Source: Filobasidium wieringae (Eukaryota > Basidiomycota > Tremellomycetes > Filobasidiales > Filobasidiaceae). From it: DNA of 64,000 nucleotides. This document shows, one piece after another, positions 11,992 to 20,814 of this stretch. A program made the position numbers and the translations under genes. The stretch spans positions 811,162-875,161 of the forward strand of contig BCIV01000003.1 of NCBI GenBank assembly GCA_001600055.1, given 5' to 3'. Within the stretch, counting starts at the first letter, position 1. Each line of letters starts with the position of its first letter. The notes under the pieces were generated by a model. It did no database searches. It was given only the letters and a program-made list of their open reading frames with translations, and was not told the DNA's origin.

Positions 11992-14900
11992 TGTGCCGTT
12001 ACGAGCTCCAAAATCTCCTTGACCGGCTTGCCGATATTGCTCATGTCTTTCGCTATTATGGGCCAGAGTTGGCCGTGCTTGGGTTCCGCAGCTATACATT
12101 GATTGATTACTTCCTCTTGACGTTCCTAAAGTGATGCAGCCTTTCAATACATGAAGCGATCGACGTTGCTGACCAAGCCCTTACCTTTTCTCCGTGCTGT
12201 CTCTCGAACTTCAACCACCAGGCCCAAAGATCGCCGTTGTCTTTATCGGCGGTAACAGCACGTCCGAGCCACAGCCTGGCCTTCTCAATTTTCCTCTCAG
12301 CCCAAAACAGTCGTCCGACCGCACACACGACCACAGGATGCTCGCTGGACTTTCTGATCGCATCGACCGACTTTCCTTTCCGCCCAGAACCGGACTCCAT
12401 CCAGATGGCCATATTCCACAGGAGACCGGAGGCTGGGCAGTCTTGCTGTGCTCGTGCTAGCATAGTCTTGGCTTGTCCGGCACTTCCAGCTCGTTCTTCC
12501 ACCTTGATTGCTTCAGTCCACAAATCCTCGTTCTTTGGGTTCTGCATACGAGCCTTCTCCAACAGGGCACGAGCTTTGATGGTGATTCCCGCCTTCTCTT
12601 CCAGTCTCGACGACAGGATCCATAGGGGTATAGATTTGGGACAAGCTTTGACTCCTTTAGCATAAGCTTCCCGTGCTCCTGGTACATTCTCCTTCTCCTC
12701 ATTGATCTGACCCTTCATCATATATAGCTTATCAAAGTTAGGGAACTTGGTGATGGCTTCATCGAGTGTTGCGATCGCCTCTTCTAACTTCGATAGCTGA
12801 CGCAGGAGATGAGCCGACTTCATCCAGATCTGAAAGCGAAGATCGAATCAGTACGTATATCTGGGTGCAAAGGCGATGAAGACTTGCCCTGTCAGTATCA
12901 GCCTCTTTCCTCGCCTTCTCCAAGACCTGCATGGCAGCCTCCATTTGCCCGGTCTCAGCGGCAAGCTTAGCAGCAGCCAACCAAATGGACTCGCTGTCAG
13001 GATTCTGCTCAAAGGCGCGAGTAAGGATATCTTTCGCTCCTCCAATATCGCCAGAGAGCCATTTTTCTTTGGCTGCCATAAGCCATAGTACCTCCGCTCT
13101 TGGGCAGTACTCCACAGCTTTGGCTAGAAGCTCTTGTAAAGCTTCCCTGTTTTGACAAGAAAAGACCGCTGAGTGGAGCTACTCAAAACGGAATGTTAGC
13201 CTTGACTTACGGTGTGCCGTGTTCCTTCTCGAAATCCGCTGCGGCTCTCCATACTGCCTTCTTGGTCGGGAACACCTGAATAGTGTAGGCATAGATTCCA
13301 CGTGCAGACTCGATGAATCCTCTACTCGTAGCACTCTCCGCGTCATCGAGCCACACTGCTTGTCTGTCCTCTTCCTCGACATCCAGATGCAAAGTCGCCT
13401 TGAGAATCGCTTGTGCCGTAGCAGGACTGTTTTCACTCTCGCATTTCTCTGCCTCCTTCATCCACTGCTCTCTGGTCATGATCACATTGTGCTTAGTCAG
13501 ACTCTTGACGGCTAGAGATATCAATTTGTCCACCGTTTCCTTGCTGCCGTCTTGTTCTCGCAGACGACCTCCCGCTATCCAAATCTCGTGACTGGTAGGG
13601 ATCATTTTATGTGCTCTGTTGAGGACTTTCTGGGCATTTTCAGGAGTTTCCAAACGAGCCAAAGTCAACCAAAGCTCGACGGATTGTGGGATGACTTCGA
13701 CAGCTCGACCGAGCAATATTCTAGCATCTTCGGGATCGTCCTCCAGGTTCACGACTTCTTTCCAGAGCTTGACCGAATTGGGTATATACTCGAGCGCTGA
13801 TAGTGCCTCGCTCGGTCAGATCCACTTTGTCGACTAGAAGAGAGGATAGGCTTACCTTTTCGTAGCACCCTTTTTTTGGCCTTGACGTCTGTTTCTAGCT
13901 CGGCAGCCTTCAGCCAGATCTTGACTGATTGGGGTATATGTTGCACCGCTTTTGCTAATATGACTTTGGCGTTTTCTGGTGTCTGATACATACAGAGAGA
14001 TTTGTGGTAAGAGAACTTGCTTCTATCACACGCCATGCAAGGCGTGCGTTCAGCCTTGCATAAAGCGCACAGGTGACAAAAAAGCTTACGTTCAGTTCAG
14101 CAGCATGAAACCAGACATCCTCATTTTTAGGACACTGTTCGCATCCCTGAGCGATGATTCTCCTTGCAGCAACCATTTTCTTCGCATGCACTGCACAGAC
14201 CGGTCAGTCAGTTTGGTTATATCTCAATCAGGCTGCAGTGCAGACAGATCCACCTACCTTCCAATGACGCAGCTGCGATCCAACCGGGGGCATGCTTTGG
14301 ATTACTTTTAATGACGGAATCAAGTAGCTGTCTTGCTCGTTTGATATCGCTAATGAAGACCATCTGGTATCAGTAAATCTGATCAACTTCAGCTCCGATT
14401 TCACCTACCCTATCTGAGCGTCGCTCTGCAGTACCTGACTGTTCAAGGCGGTCATATATCCCCTTGGATCTATAGTCGAAGACAGCCCACTAGCCGCGGC
14501 GTCTTTCGAAGCCTGGTCCAGTTGAAGTGATAACACCCTGTCCCTTGCCTGACCGATTCCAACAAGATCCGTCTCCGTGCCTTGCATTGCAGGCGTCTCG
14601 AATCCGGCACCTGACATTTGTGAGTCATCCAGCTCGTTGACGGTCTGGTTCTGAGCAACAGCGCCCGCCAGGATGGTATCAGAAACATTGTATGATTTCC
14701 CGTTGCCATTCTCTTGCATTCGCAAATTCGCTTTCCTCTTTCTCCTGGTCAGATCTCCGACCTCTGGTAGATTTTCCCACTCGTTATCGGTCACATCACT
14801 CAGCCCTCTCTTCAGATCCGCAAATTTCGCATCCAACTTTTGGTTCGACGCTCGATCCTTGGCTATTTCTGCAGCTTCGACGGCTTCTCTTCTTGCTCGC

Positions 14901-15399
14901 CGGCGTCCTTCCATGTGAGACTCCACCGACTCCCAGATTGCATCTGCCTCGGCATCGTCCGCTTCGTACACGGTTCCTGCGAATAAATTGCTCTCGTCGT
15001 CAGGGTCTCCGAACTGCTCCTCGTCATCTTCTCCTCGCTTTGCTTTAGCCTCGCTGATCAAGACCGTACATCAGATAGCAATTCTTATGGAGAGCGTCTG
15101 TAGATTGACTCACGCGATCGCCTCTGCACTTGGACCTTCTCTTGCAGGACCGATATCTGATCGAGTCGTGAAACCAGATGCTCTATCATCAGGAAACAAC
15201 AATGAAAATCAGATTTCGTCTTCAATCCTACAAGGGGCGCCGGTCTTACCCTCGCCCTAGACCAGCCACATAGCTCGCAGGAGCGGCCATCTATACAAGA
15301 GGTACGTAAGATGAGGGTAACGTTATCGGAATCGATCGTACTGACCTGTAAGAAGGAGTACTTGTCCTTATCTTGGTTTAGACCTGCTCGCAACGACAT
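11992..15399 (-). CDS. PRP6: Pre-mRNA splicing factor PRP6 (PRPF6/prp1)
   Basis: HAT-repeat scaffold of the U4/U6.U5 tri-snRNP, bridging U5 and U4/U6 in the nucleus. The N-terminal 18 residues from the ATG at 15399 (ending KYSFLQ) splice to [14 protein letters not shown], the diagnostic PRP1 N-terminal motif, followed by [14 protein letters not shown] sequence. The middle exon shows [17 protein letters not shown] and [21 protein letters not shown]. The rest is a long run of HAT/TPR-like units ([79 protein letters not shown]). The last exon, reached through an intron near 12140-12190, ends in [20 protein letters not shown]. Close to 930 residues, as in the family. Translation could also begin at the second ATG (15290). 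Confidence 0.93.
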
Positions 15400-16147: not shown

Positions 16148-19100
16148 ATGCCTGCTCGACTTCGCAGAACCCGATCATCTGCCTTTCGAGCAAACGCTAC
16201 ATTTGCTTCCCCTTCTAAAGGCTCGACAGCCCGTCCACACAAGAAGCTCAAGCTAGATCGTGGATCTCGATCTGTCAGTCTCGTCGAGGAAGAGGGGGAT
16301 GATGAATTTCAGAGTGAGGATGAAGAGGGAGGGACCGTTGGCAGCGATGACTCGGACGATCAGGGAAATCTAGATCCTGCTCCTTCAGTGTCCGCTACCA
16401 ATCGTAGTCATAGAGTGTCCAGAAAGGGCAGAGGGATAACTCGAAACCAATCTAGAACAGCTAGATCGAACAGGCAGGCTAAAAGAGGGAGCTTGAATCT
16501 CGCAAGTAACAGCCCTAGAAAGAGAAAGAGAGATGACCCTGAATACAGCGACGATGATGAGGAAATGGAGGAAGGGACTGTGGATGATGCTGACGACTAC
16601 ACTGATGAAGATATCGACGACGCAGACGAAATGACTGGCAACAAGAGCGTTGAATACATATCTGGGGCACCTGTTGAGATAGGAGACGATGCAATAAACG
16701 AGACAGATAACGACTCGGGCGAACCAGAATATATTGGTGAAAGTAAGTGCACGAGCATTATTTTGTTTACTTTGTGTCGGTTCGGCATTCCGCGACTTAC
16801 GACGATCATTGAATGGTAGATGATCACTATTTGCTTCGAGAAGCTCCACTTCGGACCTTGCAACGCTTGAAGAAAGCTGAGCTGAAGAGGCTCTGGTCTG
16901 TCGCTGGGTTATGGCCCGGCGGAGAAGATTCGGATGATGCAGTAGATATAGAAGCCGAGGAAGGCCTGACGAAGGACACTCTGGTGGAGGGAATCATTTC
17001 CGCTGTGAGTCGTACTTTACGTCACGAACCGTCTGACACAGCGACCTGACGACTCTATATGCAGCGACCCCCTTCTTCTGCTTCTACTGCATCGTCGGCG
17101 ACCCGGAAAATTGCAAAGCTGCCGCTGGCACGCCAATCATCAATAACGAGCCATGACTTGAAGTCCCCTGCGACAGATTCTTCTTTCTCGGACGAAGATA
17201 TATCAGAATCCCATCCGATCCATGCACCTAACAGGAGTAGAACTGCTGCCAAGAAAGTCGTCAAGACTAGAGACGACAAGGAGATTAGCTTGAGTCAAGA
17301 TAAACGAGCGCATTTCGAGGGTCACTTGCAAAGCCCCGTACAAAAATATCGCCGACGCCGGGGATCCCATGGGTCTTCCGTAGCCTCATCAGTAAGCGCT
17401 GGTTCACCGCGAAAGAACCCCAAGACTTCCTCCAGAAAGGGACGGAAGTCTGGGGCAGATCCTGATGGCAGCGAATTGGCCTCTGATGAGCACGAGGACG
17501 ACAGTAACGAAAGACAGACGGCGATTCGGAGGAGGCATGGCAACCACAGAGGTAGTAACAGTATGATGCTCGATGCAGGGCTGTCAGCCAGCGAGATAGC
17601 CATCGCGAGGCAGACGCCTGCTAGGCGTGCTGCGCGGAAGGCGACGCAGGCTATGCACACTCAACTGGATACAGACGACGAAGATCAGATCGATCTAACG
17701 GATGCTGATGACGATGATGATGGGGATGATCCTACCCCTCGGCCTATCAATGGGAAGATCGCTGCTAGAAATAGGGGTGCTGTGGCCCAGAGCTCAGATT
17801 CTTCACCGACAGGCCGGAGAATGCGTCGGGTCTCGAATGCCACCCTCTTGGCTTCTCCAGATACGGATTCTAGCAACCGGAGCAGCATCATCAGTATCGG
17901 TTCATCCGACGAGGAGATGACTTCTTCACAGCAGTCTGTTCGCCGGCAATCTCGTGGCAAGAAAGGGCCGCGGAGACGTGATAGTGGTGGATACAACCTG
18001 AGACGGAACGACAGCAGCGGCTTTGATCTAGACGCGCGATTAGAAGGTATCGACTTAACAGACGAGGATAGCGGGATGCATGATGGACCAGCGGAGACAC
18101 CGGAAGAAGCGACCGATGTGGAGATGACTGATCAAGCCTCGGAAGGCAGCACCTCAGTACCTGCAGAGGAAGAGGAAGACAACAGCGACGATGTGTCGGG
18201 TGCGTCATCGAGCGGTACACAGCGACATGATACTAATTGTTGTACATTGATAGACGAGATGCTGACTCACGCGACGCAAGGCACACTTCGCAAGCTTAGA
18301 AAGGCGGTTCTTGTCAGGATGTGCGAAGCTAGGGAGTTAGATACGGAGGGTACCAAAGAGCAATTGTCTCAATGGTTGATCGAATGGGTCAGTCGATAGT
18401 GGCTCAATCGAGTCTCGGATAAGAGCTCATGGCATGAGACTGTAGCGCGACTCGAAGCCTGAGTCTGGATCATCCGTCTCGACCGCTCGGCCAGAATCCA
18501 AGTCAGGCTCGTCGAACGATGAGGACGTAAAGGTCTCTAAAATGGAAAAGAAGATATCTGTGCCGAAATTATTGCAGAATCACAGCGAAGTAGCCGATCC
18601 AAATACTCCTGCTCATTCTCATGGCGATACCAAGGACGACCTAGAAGCGGATGGAGCATTGGATCTTGAGGAACTTGGATTGATCGATCGAGAGATTCCC
18701 GTGGATCAGATCCAAAAAGGGGAGAAGATCGGAAGTGGTGGCTTCAAGGAGTAAGCTGGATGCCGGTAGGGTAAATTTGGTTTACTGACTGCAATCTCGA
18801 TACAAAGCGTTTATATCGGGAAGCTACGAGGCAGGGTCAAGGTAGCAGTATATGAATTCCGCGATGAGCTCAGTGAAAGTGAGTTTCGTTGCCGAAACCC
18901 TACAAATCGTTTCTAAGTTGTATCAACCTTTTACAGTGGATATACGCGAGCTCAAGCTTCTAGCGGAGTTCAGCCATCCCAACATCGTCAGACTCGTAAG
19001 GCATTCCATCTACTCAAATCGCTTCGTGTCTAATAGATCCTACAGTTGGGCATAGCTATACCAGAACGCTCGTTGCACGTTCCCTGCATGGTCGTGACAG

Positions 19101-20000
19101 AGTTATGCGATAAAGGCGATCTCTTTGACTATATTGTAAGACGGGGTTGGCTAGGGCTATCGAGACTGCGTATGCTGAATGTAGTTTCCAGCGAAACGTA
19201 CCTATGCCTACTGTGAACAAGGTCGTAAGTTGGCTTGGGTTACAACATCGGGAGTTCTCTGCTAATTCTGCCGTCGCATCAGCTGAAGATGATGCTCGAT
19301 ATCGCCCACGGAATCAGGTATCTGCATGATCGGCAGCCACGAGTGATCCACCGAGACGTGAGTCAACGTCGAAGGCTTCGTCTATGCCTGTCTAGGCTTA
19401 TGGATCCTAACATTCTGGTCTTGTAGTGTAAATCCTCTAACATCTTGATCAACAATCGGGGCGTTTGCAAGGTTGGTGACTTTGGTCTCGCTCGAGTCAA
19501 AAACACAACACGAAGTGTGATCCGATCGCTCGTCGGTACTGTCAATTGGCAAGCCCCTGAGCTGTGGAGCCCAAAACCAAGATACGATTACAAGGTCGAT
19601 GTGTTTAGTTGTGCGATGGTTTTTTGGGAGATGATGGCCGGGTGGACAAGTAAAAAGGTACGGTCTGAGATTGGCGCCACTGATCATGGAACTAATAATG
19701 GAGCGTGACTCTGAGAAGATTGAATATCCATGGGAAGGACAGAACGAACACTGGATATACCTGAATGTCGGACAACACAAAGTCAGGTGAGCAGACCTTT
19801 CAGCAGAGTCCCAAAGAGCATTCGTCCTCAATGATTTGCGTTGTAGACCGGAAACGAAACGCTTGGAAGACCCCTGGGGAACAGACCTAGTCAGCCTCAT
19901 CGAACGTATGTGGCATCACGATCCGATAGAACGTCCCACAATGAACGACGTGGTCGATGACCTTGTCGCCATCATCGAAATGAAGAAGAAGCATCGCTGA
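16148..20000 (+). CDS. Large nuclear-type protein with two SAP-like motifs and a C-terminal TKL-like protein kinase
   Basis: About 1,070 residues from ten or more exons. The N-terminal 200 residues are basic/acidic and disordered (RKRKRDDPEYSDDDEE). A first SAP-like segment follows (LRTLQRLKKAELKRLW ... LTKDTLVEGI), then about 380 disordered Ser/Asp-rich residues and a second, clearer one (LRKLRKAVLVRMCEARELDT / GTKEQLSQWLIEW). A 58-nt intron (18388-18445) joins this in frame to a linker and a kinase domain: IGSGGFKDVYIG, RELKLLAEFSHPNIVRL, VIHRDCKSSNILI, VGDFGLAR, GTVNWQAPELW, YKVDVFSCAMVFWEM and a C-lobe ending IERPTMNDVV. The beta-3 lysine is replaced by Tyr (VAVYEF) and the glycine loop holds a Lys. 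SAP motifs bind DNA in known proteins; a chromatin-associated kinase is my inference. Two adjacent genes remain possible, since the upstream frame stops at 18399 and an ATG occurs at 18542. Confidence 0.75.
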
Positions 20001-20330
20001 GACTGTCACGACACATTCAAACTGCATCCATCACAGCAACACATTAGCATATGCGACTATCAGTAACGCGCCGAACCTGTCACGTCATGAAATAAAGTAC
20101 AATACACACTGTAGCTCGTATCGATATGCATACAGAAAGATGATTGCGACAAAGGCTCCATGCGCGAATGGTGGAGCTAGGATTGACTGAACCCTTGGCG
20201 GGATCGCACCAGTACATCAGTCCACTATCCGCTGTGACAGCGATATCCTGCTTAGTGAGATGGATCGGACGTATGTCGGCAATCGATCGCTCGGTTGGCT
20301 GCTGGTTTTACGTCTGAGAACATCAAGGGT
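20001..20330. other. Spacer downstream of the kinase gene
   Basis: Non-coding by inspection; includes the kinase 3' untranslated region with an AATAAA-type signal near 20090. Nothing else recognised. Confidence 0.4.
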
Positions 20331-20552
20331 GAGGCTACTATAACGGTATAGATGATTACATCCAGATGTAGCCTTATTTCAGCCGGTCGTTCTGTCATAT
20401 TGCAATGCGTAATCAGGGGTATCAGTTTCTATAATTGTCGACAAATTTAGGTTATATATATCTGCACTCTCTGCAGTCATCAAGCCTTCTGCGTAGCACA
20501 GTGGTAGTTGCGATGAGCTGTTAATTAACCAATTTTCTGGCACTCATAGGTA
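20331..20552 (+). repeat. Imperfect tandem repeat, copy A (with truncated tRNA)
   Basis: Begins GAGGCTACTATA and contains GATGATTACATCCAG, as copy B does at 20563. Similarity continues patchily through GTCAT and the AATCAG block, and becomes near perfect over AAGCCTTCTGCGTAGCACAG and the next 10 bases. The offset between copies is 232 bp at the left end and 241 bp at the tRNA. The left end can form a stem (GGCTAC / GTAGCC). Confidence 0.65.
20487..20547 (+). pseudogene. Truncated tRNA-Asn-like copy lacking the T arm
   Basis: Identical to the intact tRNA at 20728 over the acceptor 5' strand (TTCTGCG), D arm and the start of the anticodon loop (CTGTTA). The anticodon stem differs (ATGAG) but is matched by CTCAT 25 nt later, so it still pairs. 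Downstream there is no TTCGAAA loop and no acceptor 3' strand; the second repeat copy starts almost at once. Confidence 0.6.
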
Positions 20553-20562
20553 TCATGAACAT

Positions 20563-20760
20563 GAGGCTACTATAGTAGTATGGATGATTACATCCAGGTA
20601 TTCCAGGTGTAGCGTTGTTCCGGTCAGTCATTTTGTCATGTTTCGCTGGGGAATCAGCAAGATCGATCGCCAGTGTTGCACATTTTTGATGATAGAATGT
20701 TCAGTTTGACGGTTTGCCCAACAAGCCTTCTGCGTAGCACAGTGGTAGTTGCACCGAGCT
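20563..20760 (+). repeat. Imperfect tandem repeat, copy B (leads into the intact tRNA)
   Basis: Second copy of the roughly 235-bp unit. It has GAGGCTACTATA, then GGATGATTACATCC (a perfect small hairpin in this copy), a 9-10 bp insertion relative to copy A, and ends inside the tRNA gene. Divergence in the middle suggests an old duplication. Confidence 0.65.
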
Positions 20761-20814
20761 GTTATTAGACAAGATGCAACTCGGGGGTCCGAGGTTCGAA
20801 ACCTCGCGTGGAAG
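20728..20814 (+). tRNA. tRNA-Asn (GTT) with a 14-nt intron
   Basis: Folds as a 73-nt mature tRNA. The acceptor stem TTCTGCG/CGTGGAA includes two G-T wobbles. The D arm is GCA..TGC with AGTGGTAG in the loop. The anticodon stem CCGAG/CTCGG has a mature loop CTGTTAA (anticodon GTT) once 14 nt are removed at position 37/38. The variable loop is 5 nt, the T arm CGAGG-TTCGAAA-CCTCG, and the discriminator G. A T-rich tract (TTCTTTTT) after the 3' end fits Pol III termination. The two wobbles leave some doubt about function. Confidence 0.75.

Follow-up and report, generated by a model that had tools for sequence, protein, structure and literature searches.

The gene at positions 16148-20000 on the forward strand of the window, the 64,000-nucleotide stretch of Filobasidium wieringae DNA analysed here, is probably a member of an old fungal family of SAP-kinases in which the lysine that anchors ATP has moved from strand β3 to a loop position at β2. 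Judged from their conserved residues, the members of this family are most likely active kinases with a relocated lysine of the WNK type, and enzymes that a simple motif check calls dead are probably alive. A fuller account is favoured with moderate confidence. It holds that the move to β2 took place in a TKL kinase, independently of WNK and POMK, by the time of the common ancestor of Basidiomycota, Mucoromycota and Zoopagomycota or earlier, and that it has since been fixed in an active SAP-bearing chromatin kinase whose β3 site drifted to small residues and even to tyrosine.

Re-splicing of the window resolves this region into a single gene of 13 exons and 12 introns, encoding a protein of 1044 residues with a C-terminal kinase domain (residues 773 to 1033, Pfam PF07714). 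All 12 introns run from GT to AG and measure 50-77 bases each, the 1044 codons hold no internal stop, and the spliced kinase part scores 154.8 bits against Pfam Pkinase. The gene is single-copy in the genome, as every match above 55 bits falls within it and the best match elsewhere reaches 54.5 bits. Its features in and around the active site are the following:

16148-20000, forward strand: whole gene of a TKL-ccin-type SAP-kinase, from the splice model; P0122 is among the homologues longer than 1000 residues
18740-18750, forward strand: end of the glycine loop, ...GGFK(D), from the sequence and the splice model
18746-18748, forward strand: AAG, Lys784, the relocated lysine
18751-18807, forward strand: intron of 57 bases, GTAAGC...ACAAAG, phase 2, between FK(D) and VYIG
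18851-18853, forward strand: TAT, Tyr800, the empty β3 lysine site
18948-18950, forward strand: Glu813 of helix αC, presumed to form a salt bridge with Lys784 (Glu in 347 of 348 aligned rows)
19349-19357, forward strand: HRD catalytic loop with Asp894 (Asp in 348 of 349 rows)
19478-19486, forward strand: DFG with Asp912 (Asp and Phe each in 352 of 353 rows; Leu, hence DLG, in the WNK1 and WNK3 references)
19553-19561, forward strand: APE motif (Glu939 in 346 of 347 rows)

Lys784, within IGSGGFKDVYIG, stands in place of the third Gly of GxGxxG, in a glycine loop that here reads GSGGFKDVY, and Tyr800, in KVAVYEF (β3 motif VAVY), occupies the place of the VAxK lysine. Both codons had been picked out by a sequence-only reading of this DNA, and direct reading together with re-splicing confirms them. 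The same holds for the catalytic residues that it called intact, since αC Glu813 (RELKLL), HRD (892-894), DFG (912-914) and APE (937-939) are all retained in the spliced 1044-residue protein, and for the equation of the loop lysine with that of WNK1, as GRGSFKTVYK and GSGGFKDVYI align without a gap. Only the intron given there as 18751-18808 needed correction, its end being off by one base. That a different splice restores a lysine in place of the tyrosine, which had been considered as well, is very unlikely, because the Tyr codon lies in mid-exon (43 bases into exon 18808-18878) and relatives share the reading frame (VAVCEF in P0001). The TAT codon is read from one assembly, where a sequencing error is possible; the family-wide lack of a β3 lysine stands regardless.

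Downstream of the kinase gene, positions 20728-20814 of the forward strand match an Rfam tRNA model (40.6 bits, gathering threshold 29). Some 15 extra bases follow the anticodon region, and the stretch is probably an intron-containing tRNA gene, perhaps for Asn by the anticodon GTT read by eye; ARAGORN in bacterial mode listed no tRNA in the window. The genome has five further stretches like it, with 81-97% identity. Two direct-repeat pairs are found in the same region, 20330-20365 with 20562-20597 (89% identity, spacing 232) and 20478-20523 with 20719-20764 (91% identity, spacing 241), the latter containing the 5' portion of the tRNA-like element, a layout suggestive of partial duplication of a unit that carried the tRNA. 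On the reverse strand, the open frames at 14405-15061 and 12107-12823, one with PRP1_N and the other with TPR/HAT repeats, look like parts of a splicing factor of the Prp1/Prp6 type.

The family was assembled from three protein searches (the best 120 matches each, of 461, 563 and 4770), using as queries the kinase part of the window protein against short and against long proteins, and a profile built from three members of early-diverging fungi. The matches listed comprise 355 distinct relatives, which with the window give an alignment of 356 rows. Counting the rows with a residue at the site concerned, the β3 site is Lys in none of 336 (Ala in 116, Gly in 116, Ser in 85, Cys in 17, Tyr in 1 and Gln in 1), so that the orthologues with a normal VAIK lysine allowed for in the sequence-only reading are not found in this set, whereas the loop site is Lys in 327 of 335. 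In the 329 rows spanning both sites, a loop Lys is present in 322 and a β3 Lys in none. The eight rows with another residue in the loop (P0072, P0078, P0084, P0106, P0109, P0110, P0112 and P0113) all lack the GxGxFK motif: the first residue of P0084 and of P0106 lies no more than two residues from DVY, and the other six carry unrelated sequence from about DVY, where the window has the intron between FK(D) and VY. These eight look like cut or misjoined gene models. Among the matches listed, the loop lysine is present in each aligned row of the family with the glycine-loop motif, and Lys784 is therefore not there by chance. Some members have GSGAFK (P0056, P0073, P0353 and others) or GSGSFK (P0085, P0087) in place of GSGGFK, with the lysine kept, and P0338 from Mucor atramentarius, with its Gln at β3, is the sole aligned member among the matches listed, other than the window, with a larger residue at that site.

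A stricter set of 314 full rows, window included, covers both the N-lobe and the catalytic loop and falls into 34 clusters at 70% identity. Here the loop lysine is found in 312 rows and 32 clusters, the exceptions being P0072 and P0078, both without the glycine-loop motif. It is because of these two rows that the loop site is placed no higher than 55th among 263 columns by raw entropy (the β3 site is 134th). Lys784 is also the sole near-invariant lysine of the N-lobe, as Lys777 is conserved in 287 of the 314 rows and Lys796, which precedes VAxY, in 117. In principle, such conservation may serve a purpose other than ATP binding, and this is what a family of pseudokinases would imply, in which the β3 lysine was lost, ATP binding is weak or absent, the protein has a scaffold role and conservation of the loop lysine has some other cause. 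This explanation is judged quite improbable. Scaffolds usually let some catalytic residues drift, while in this family the HRD Asp, the catalytic Asn, the DFG Asp and the αC Glu show no variation over the 34 clusters, and the gained Lys, leaving aside the two rows that lack the motif, is equally fixed. In its favour, the passages found of PMC10211241 give loss of the VAIK lysine as a usual mark of pseudokinases, and none of the passages found reports activity for a member of the family.

The role of the lost lysine could also have been taken by another basic residue close by, either Lys796 before the motif or Arg803 after it. Arg803 (18860-18862) lies three residues past the vacant lysine position and is conserved in 309 of the 314 full rows, a level that would suit a substitute; on a β strand, however, a residue three places past 800 should face the opposite way, and Lys796 is Lys in too few of the rows, as given above. 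A substitution of this kind is accordingly rated very unlikely.

Regarding its age, the trait is spread widely in fungi. Member names were taken from the search listings, where they are partly cut and many rows are nameless; those that can be read belong to what we take to be Basidiomycota (mushrooms, Cryptococcus and its kin, rusts, smuts, Malassezia and Wallemia), Mucoromycota (Mucor, Rhizopus, Mortierella and Rhizophagus) and Zoopagomycota (Coemansia, Linderina, Dispira and Basidiobolus). The names seen among the matches listed include none from ascomycetes, chytrids, plants or animals, and given how many ascomycete genomes the databases contain, the ascomycetes have likely lost the family. 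The closest relative among the matches listed, P0001 from Filobasidium floriforme (85% identity), has Cys at β3 (VAVCEF), as does P0122 from Naganishia. The framing of the trait by the sequence-only reading, as a change in one Tremellomycete kinase, thus proves too narrow, because it is fixed in all matches listed and reaches at least three fungal phyla. A recent change limited to F. wieringae or its Tremellomycete relatives could claim that Tyr occurs in the window alone, in 1 of 336 rows among the matches listed; with no β3 Lys in any of those rows and with Cys in the near relatives P0001 and P0122, this idea is barely credible. A recent loss of the lysine is refuted among the relatives listed, and the narrow reading survives for the step from Cys to Tyr alone. 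On the aligned residues, loss of the lysine is a family-wide trait far older than the lineage of the window, and the Cys-to-Tyr replacement was probably one G-to-A change, a late step on an old site already without lysine. As Tyr800 is bulky where relatives carry Gly, Ala, Ser or Cys (and in one case Gln), the enzyme encoded in the window itself could be impaired.

Structural models of two relatives place the loop lysine more precisely. AlphaFold2 was run for P0001 (64 sequences, mean pLDDT 82.2) and for P0118 from Dispira (48 sequences, mean pLDDT 81.2), both models being free of ATP, and comparison with PDB chains confirmed an ordinary kinase fold. The relocated lysine is the first residue of β2 in both, as in WNK1: K143 in P0001 (strand 143-150, block pLDDT 93) and K113 in P0118 (strand 113-120, block pLDDT 90). 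Helix αC (167-178 and 137-152, respectively) contains the alignment-invariant Glu (E172 and E146), and the activation loop is of low confidence in both models. A mechanism can be proposed on this basis, in which the lysine would have shifted to the third-glycine position of the loop, that is, to the start of β2. By analogy with WNK1, we infer that Lys784 most likely reaches from β2 into the cleft and contacts the ATP phosphates, and it would pair with αC Glu813, the arrangement accepted for WNK1 Lys233; Asp894 of HRD and Asp912 of DFG would keep their usual roles. The β3 site, once vacated, would be free for a small residue. In the passages found of PMC10211241 and PMC4718504, the replacement of a β3 lysine by one at β2 is established for WNK1 and POMK; WNK1 is active with its β2 Lys233, and mutation of this residue abolishes activity.

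The segments ahead of the kinase domain contribute the other half of the architecture:

16820-17004, forward strand: exon 2, SAP-like stretch LRTLQRLKKAELKRLWSVAGLW, recognised by eye; no Pfam match at E 1, and a comparable stretch seen by eye in P0187 from Coprinopsis
18254-18387, forward strand: exon 4, SAP-like domain preceding the kinase; PF02037 at E 0.0038 and 17.3 bits when scanned as a piece, below the cut-off of 23.9

PF02037 is not listed in the scan of the full-length window protein, and at E 0.01 it is found in 28 of the 48 relatives scanned (of 355), with 28.7 bits in P0118. The part of P0001 that matches exon 4 is modelled as helices at 7-11, 15-24 and 33-50 (block pLDDT 87-98). 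SAP domains serve DNA binding in chromatin, and the SAP-like segments suggest that the kinase may act there. A Laccaria protein with a Coprinopsis TKL-ccin kinase as its top BLAST match is listed in a table of PMC5604158 among 'unconventional activators with nuclear localization'; the authors caution on false positives in the screen behind it, and the entry, whose accession is not linked to P0187, is only a hint at a nuclear role.

Whether the family arrived at its lysine position separately from the WNKs was approached by sequence comparison and by phylogeny. The likeness to WNK in lysine position is well founded, as all 13 aligned canonical kinases have Gly in the loop column, where the 22 aligned family rows share Lys with WNK1 and WNK3. 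A single relocation before the split of the family from the WNKs, which are salt-balance kinases of animals, would explain the shared position as well as the Cys that some members have at β3, like WNK1 and WNK3, and it is regarded as unlikely. In a single-sequence search of the PDB, the top ranks went to an EGFR chain (with two matching stretches), followed by CTR1, a Src/Abl ancestor, DLK and TNNI3K, and WNK1 ranked 51 and 53 of 2611 chains matched. A family profile of 333 rows with both trait columns masked, scored against 11 kinases, gave 196.3 bits for CTR1, 178.9 for DLK, 167.5 for Src/Abl, 159.5 for BRAF, 154.0 for WNK1, 149.5 for TAK1, 147.7 for WNK3, 108.9 for EGFR, 100.5 for PAK1, 76.5 for PKA and 70.3 for MEK1. 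Within TKL, CTR1 and DLK are thus clearly higher than WNK1, which argues against a common relocation, whereas BRAF is only slightly higher and TAK1 slightly lower, which argues for it. A set of 20 columns was taken as diagnostic because one residue is common to 6 or more of the 9 TKL/TK references and a different one to both WNKs; the family matches TKL/TK in 10 of these columns, WNK in 3 and neither group in 7. The marks KSxN, GTxxW, WE and W..RP, which were picked from the references, occur in 22 of 22 aligned family rows, but are incomplete among the 9 TKL/TK references (BRAF, IRAK4 and ALK5 miss some). The description of the rest of the domain as TKL-like rather than WNK-like is upheld by such residues.

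The family rows form a clade in the tree of 22 of them with 11 references (support 100/98), inside which P0187, the Coprinopsis member that bears the name TKL-ccin, is placed, and they are monophyletic in a second tree too (100/100). The best tree sets the family, TKL and TK against WNK, STE and PKA, with support of only 66/88. Constraining the family to group with WNK costs 3.4 log units (AU p 0.34), so that a common clade is not rejected, and constraining it to group with TKL costs 0.26 (AU p 0.28). Of the earlier claim of an independent move, the move stands, and its independence of WNK is likely, but the AU test leaves the alternative clade standing. Against the latter, the family has DFG in place of DLG, and its Trp961 and Trp1016, unvarying over the 34 clusters, are Leu and Ile in WNK1 and WNK3. 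Counting the family as WNK proper fails on its DFG, where WNKs have the DLG that takes part in the chloride site, and also because the C-terminal domains are missing. WNKs carry OSR1-type/CCT domains at the C-terminus; the kinase domain is the last domain of the window protein, and Pfam matched no C-terminal domain of the WNK or OSR1 type in the 48 of 355 relatives scanned (E 0.01) or in the window protein (E 1).

The VAIK lysine is a standard test for telling active from dead kinases. A widely conserved fungal family fails this test while keeping the other catalytic residues and a WNK-type replacement, and by that test it would therefore be filed as pseudokinases. If its members are active, as predicted, they indicate that kinase active sites are open to rewiring, and mutation of the VAxK site would be invalid as a dead control in the TKL-ccin-type family. 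Should the move have occurred independently of WNK, the β2 position would be a repeatable alternative solution, and the reason why lysines move would become testable by comparing unrelated families; for WNK1, the part of PMC4718504 consulted proposes that the odd position makes room for a halide ion. The literature search returned no report of a missing lysine in the TKL-ccin-type family: in the parts found of papers that use the name, it stands in tables or lists of expression, phosphosite or screening results, with nothing there on the lysine, and a Cryptococcus kinase study counts 3 TKL kinases in a main text where a term search met neither 'lysine' nor 'WNK'.

Compared with known systems, the family shares with WNK the Lys at the third-glycine, β2 position (Lys233 in WNK1), the missing VAxK Lys, the αC Glu, HRD and the Asp of DxG. 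It differs from WNK1 and WNK3 in having DFG rather than DLG, KSxN rather than KCDN, and Trp935, Trp961 and Trp1016 where these have Phe, Leu and Ile, and from WNK in the SAP-like domain ahead of the kinase. In POMK (SGK196), according to the passages found of PMC10211241, the absent VAIK lysine is likewise replaced from β2; this enzyme, whose substrate is a sugar, has neither the HRD nor the DFG aspartate, whereas the family keeps both motifs. The TKL kinases CTR1, DLK (MAP3K12) and TNNI3K are among the best PDB sequence matches, and the first two, which lead the 11 profile matches and share the KSxN, GTxxW, WE and RP marks, differ from the family in having VAVK and a Gly where it has the loop Lys. 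Finally, of the TKL-ccin kinases of Coprinopsis and other mushrooms, P0187 lies inside the family clade itself.
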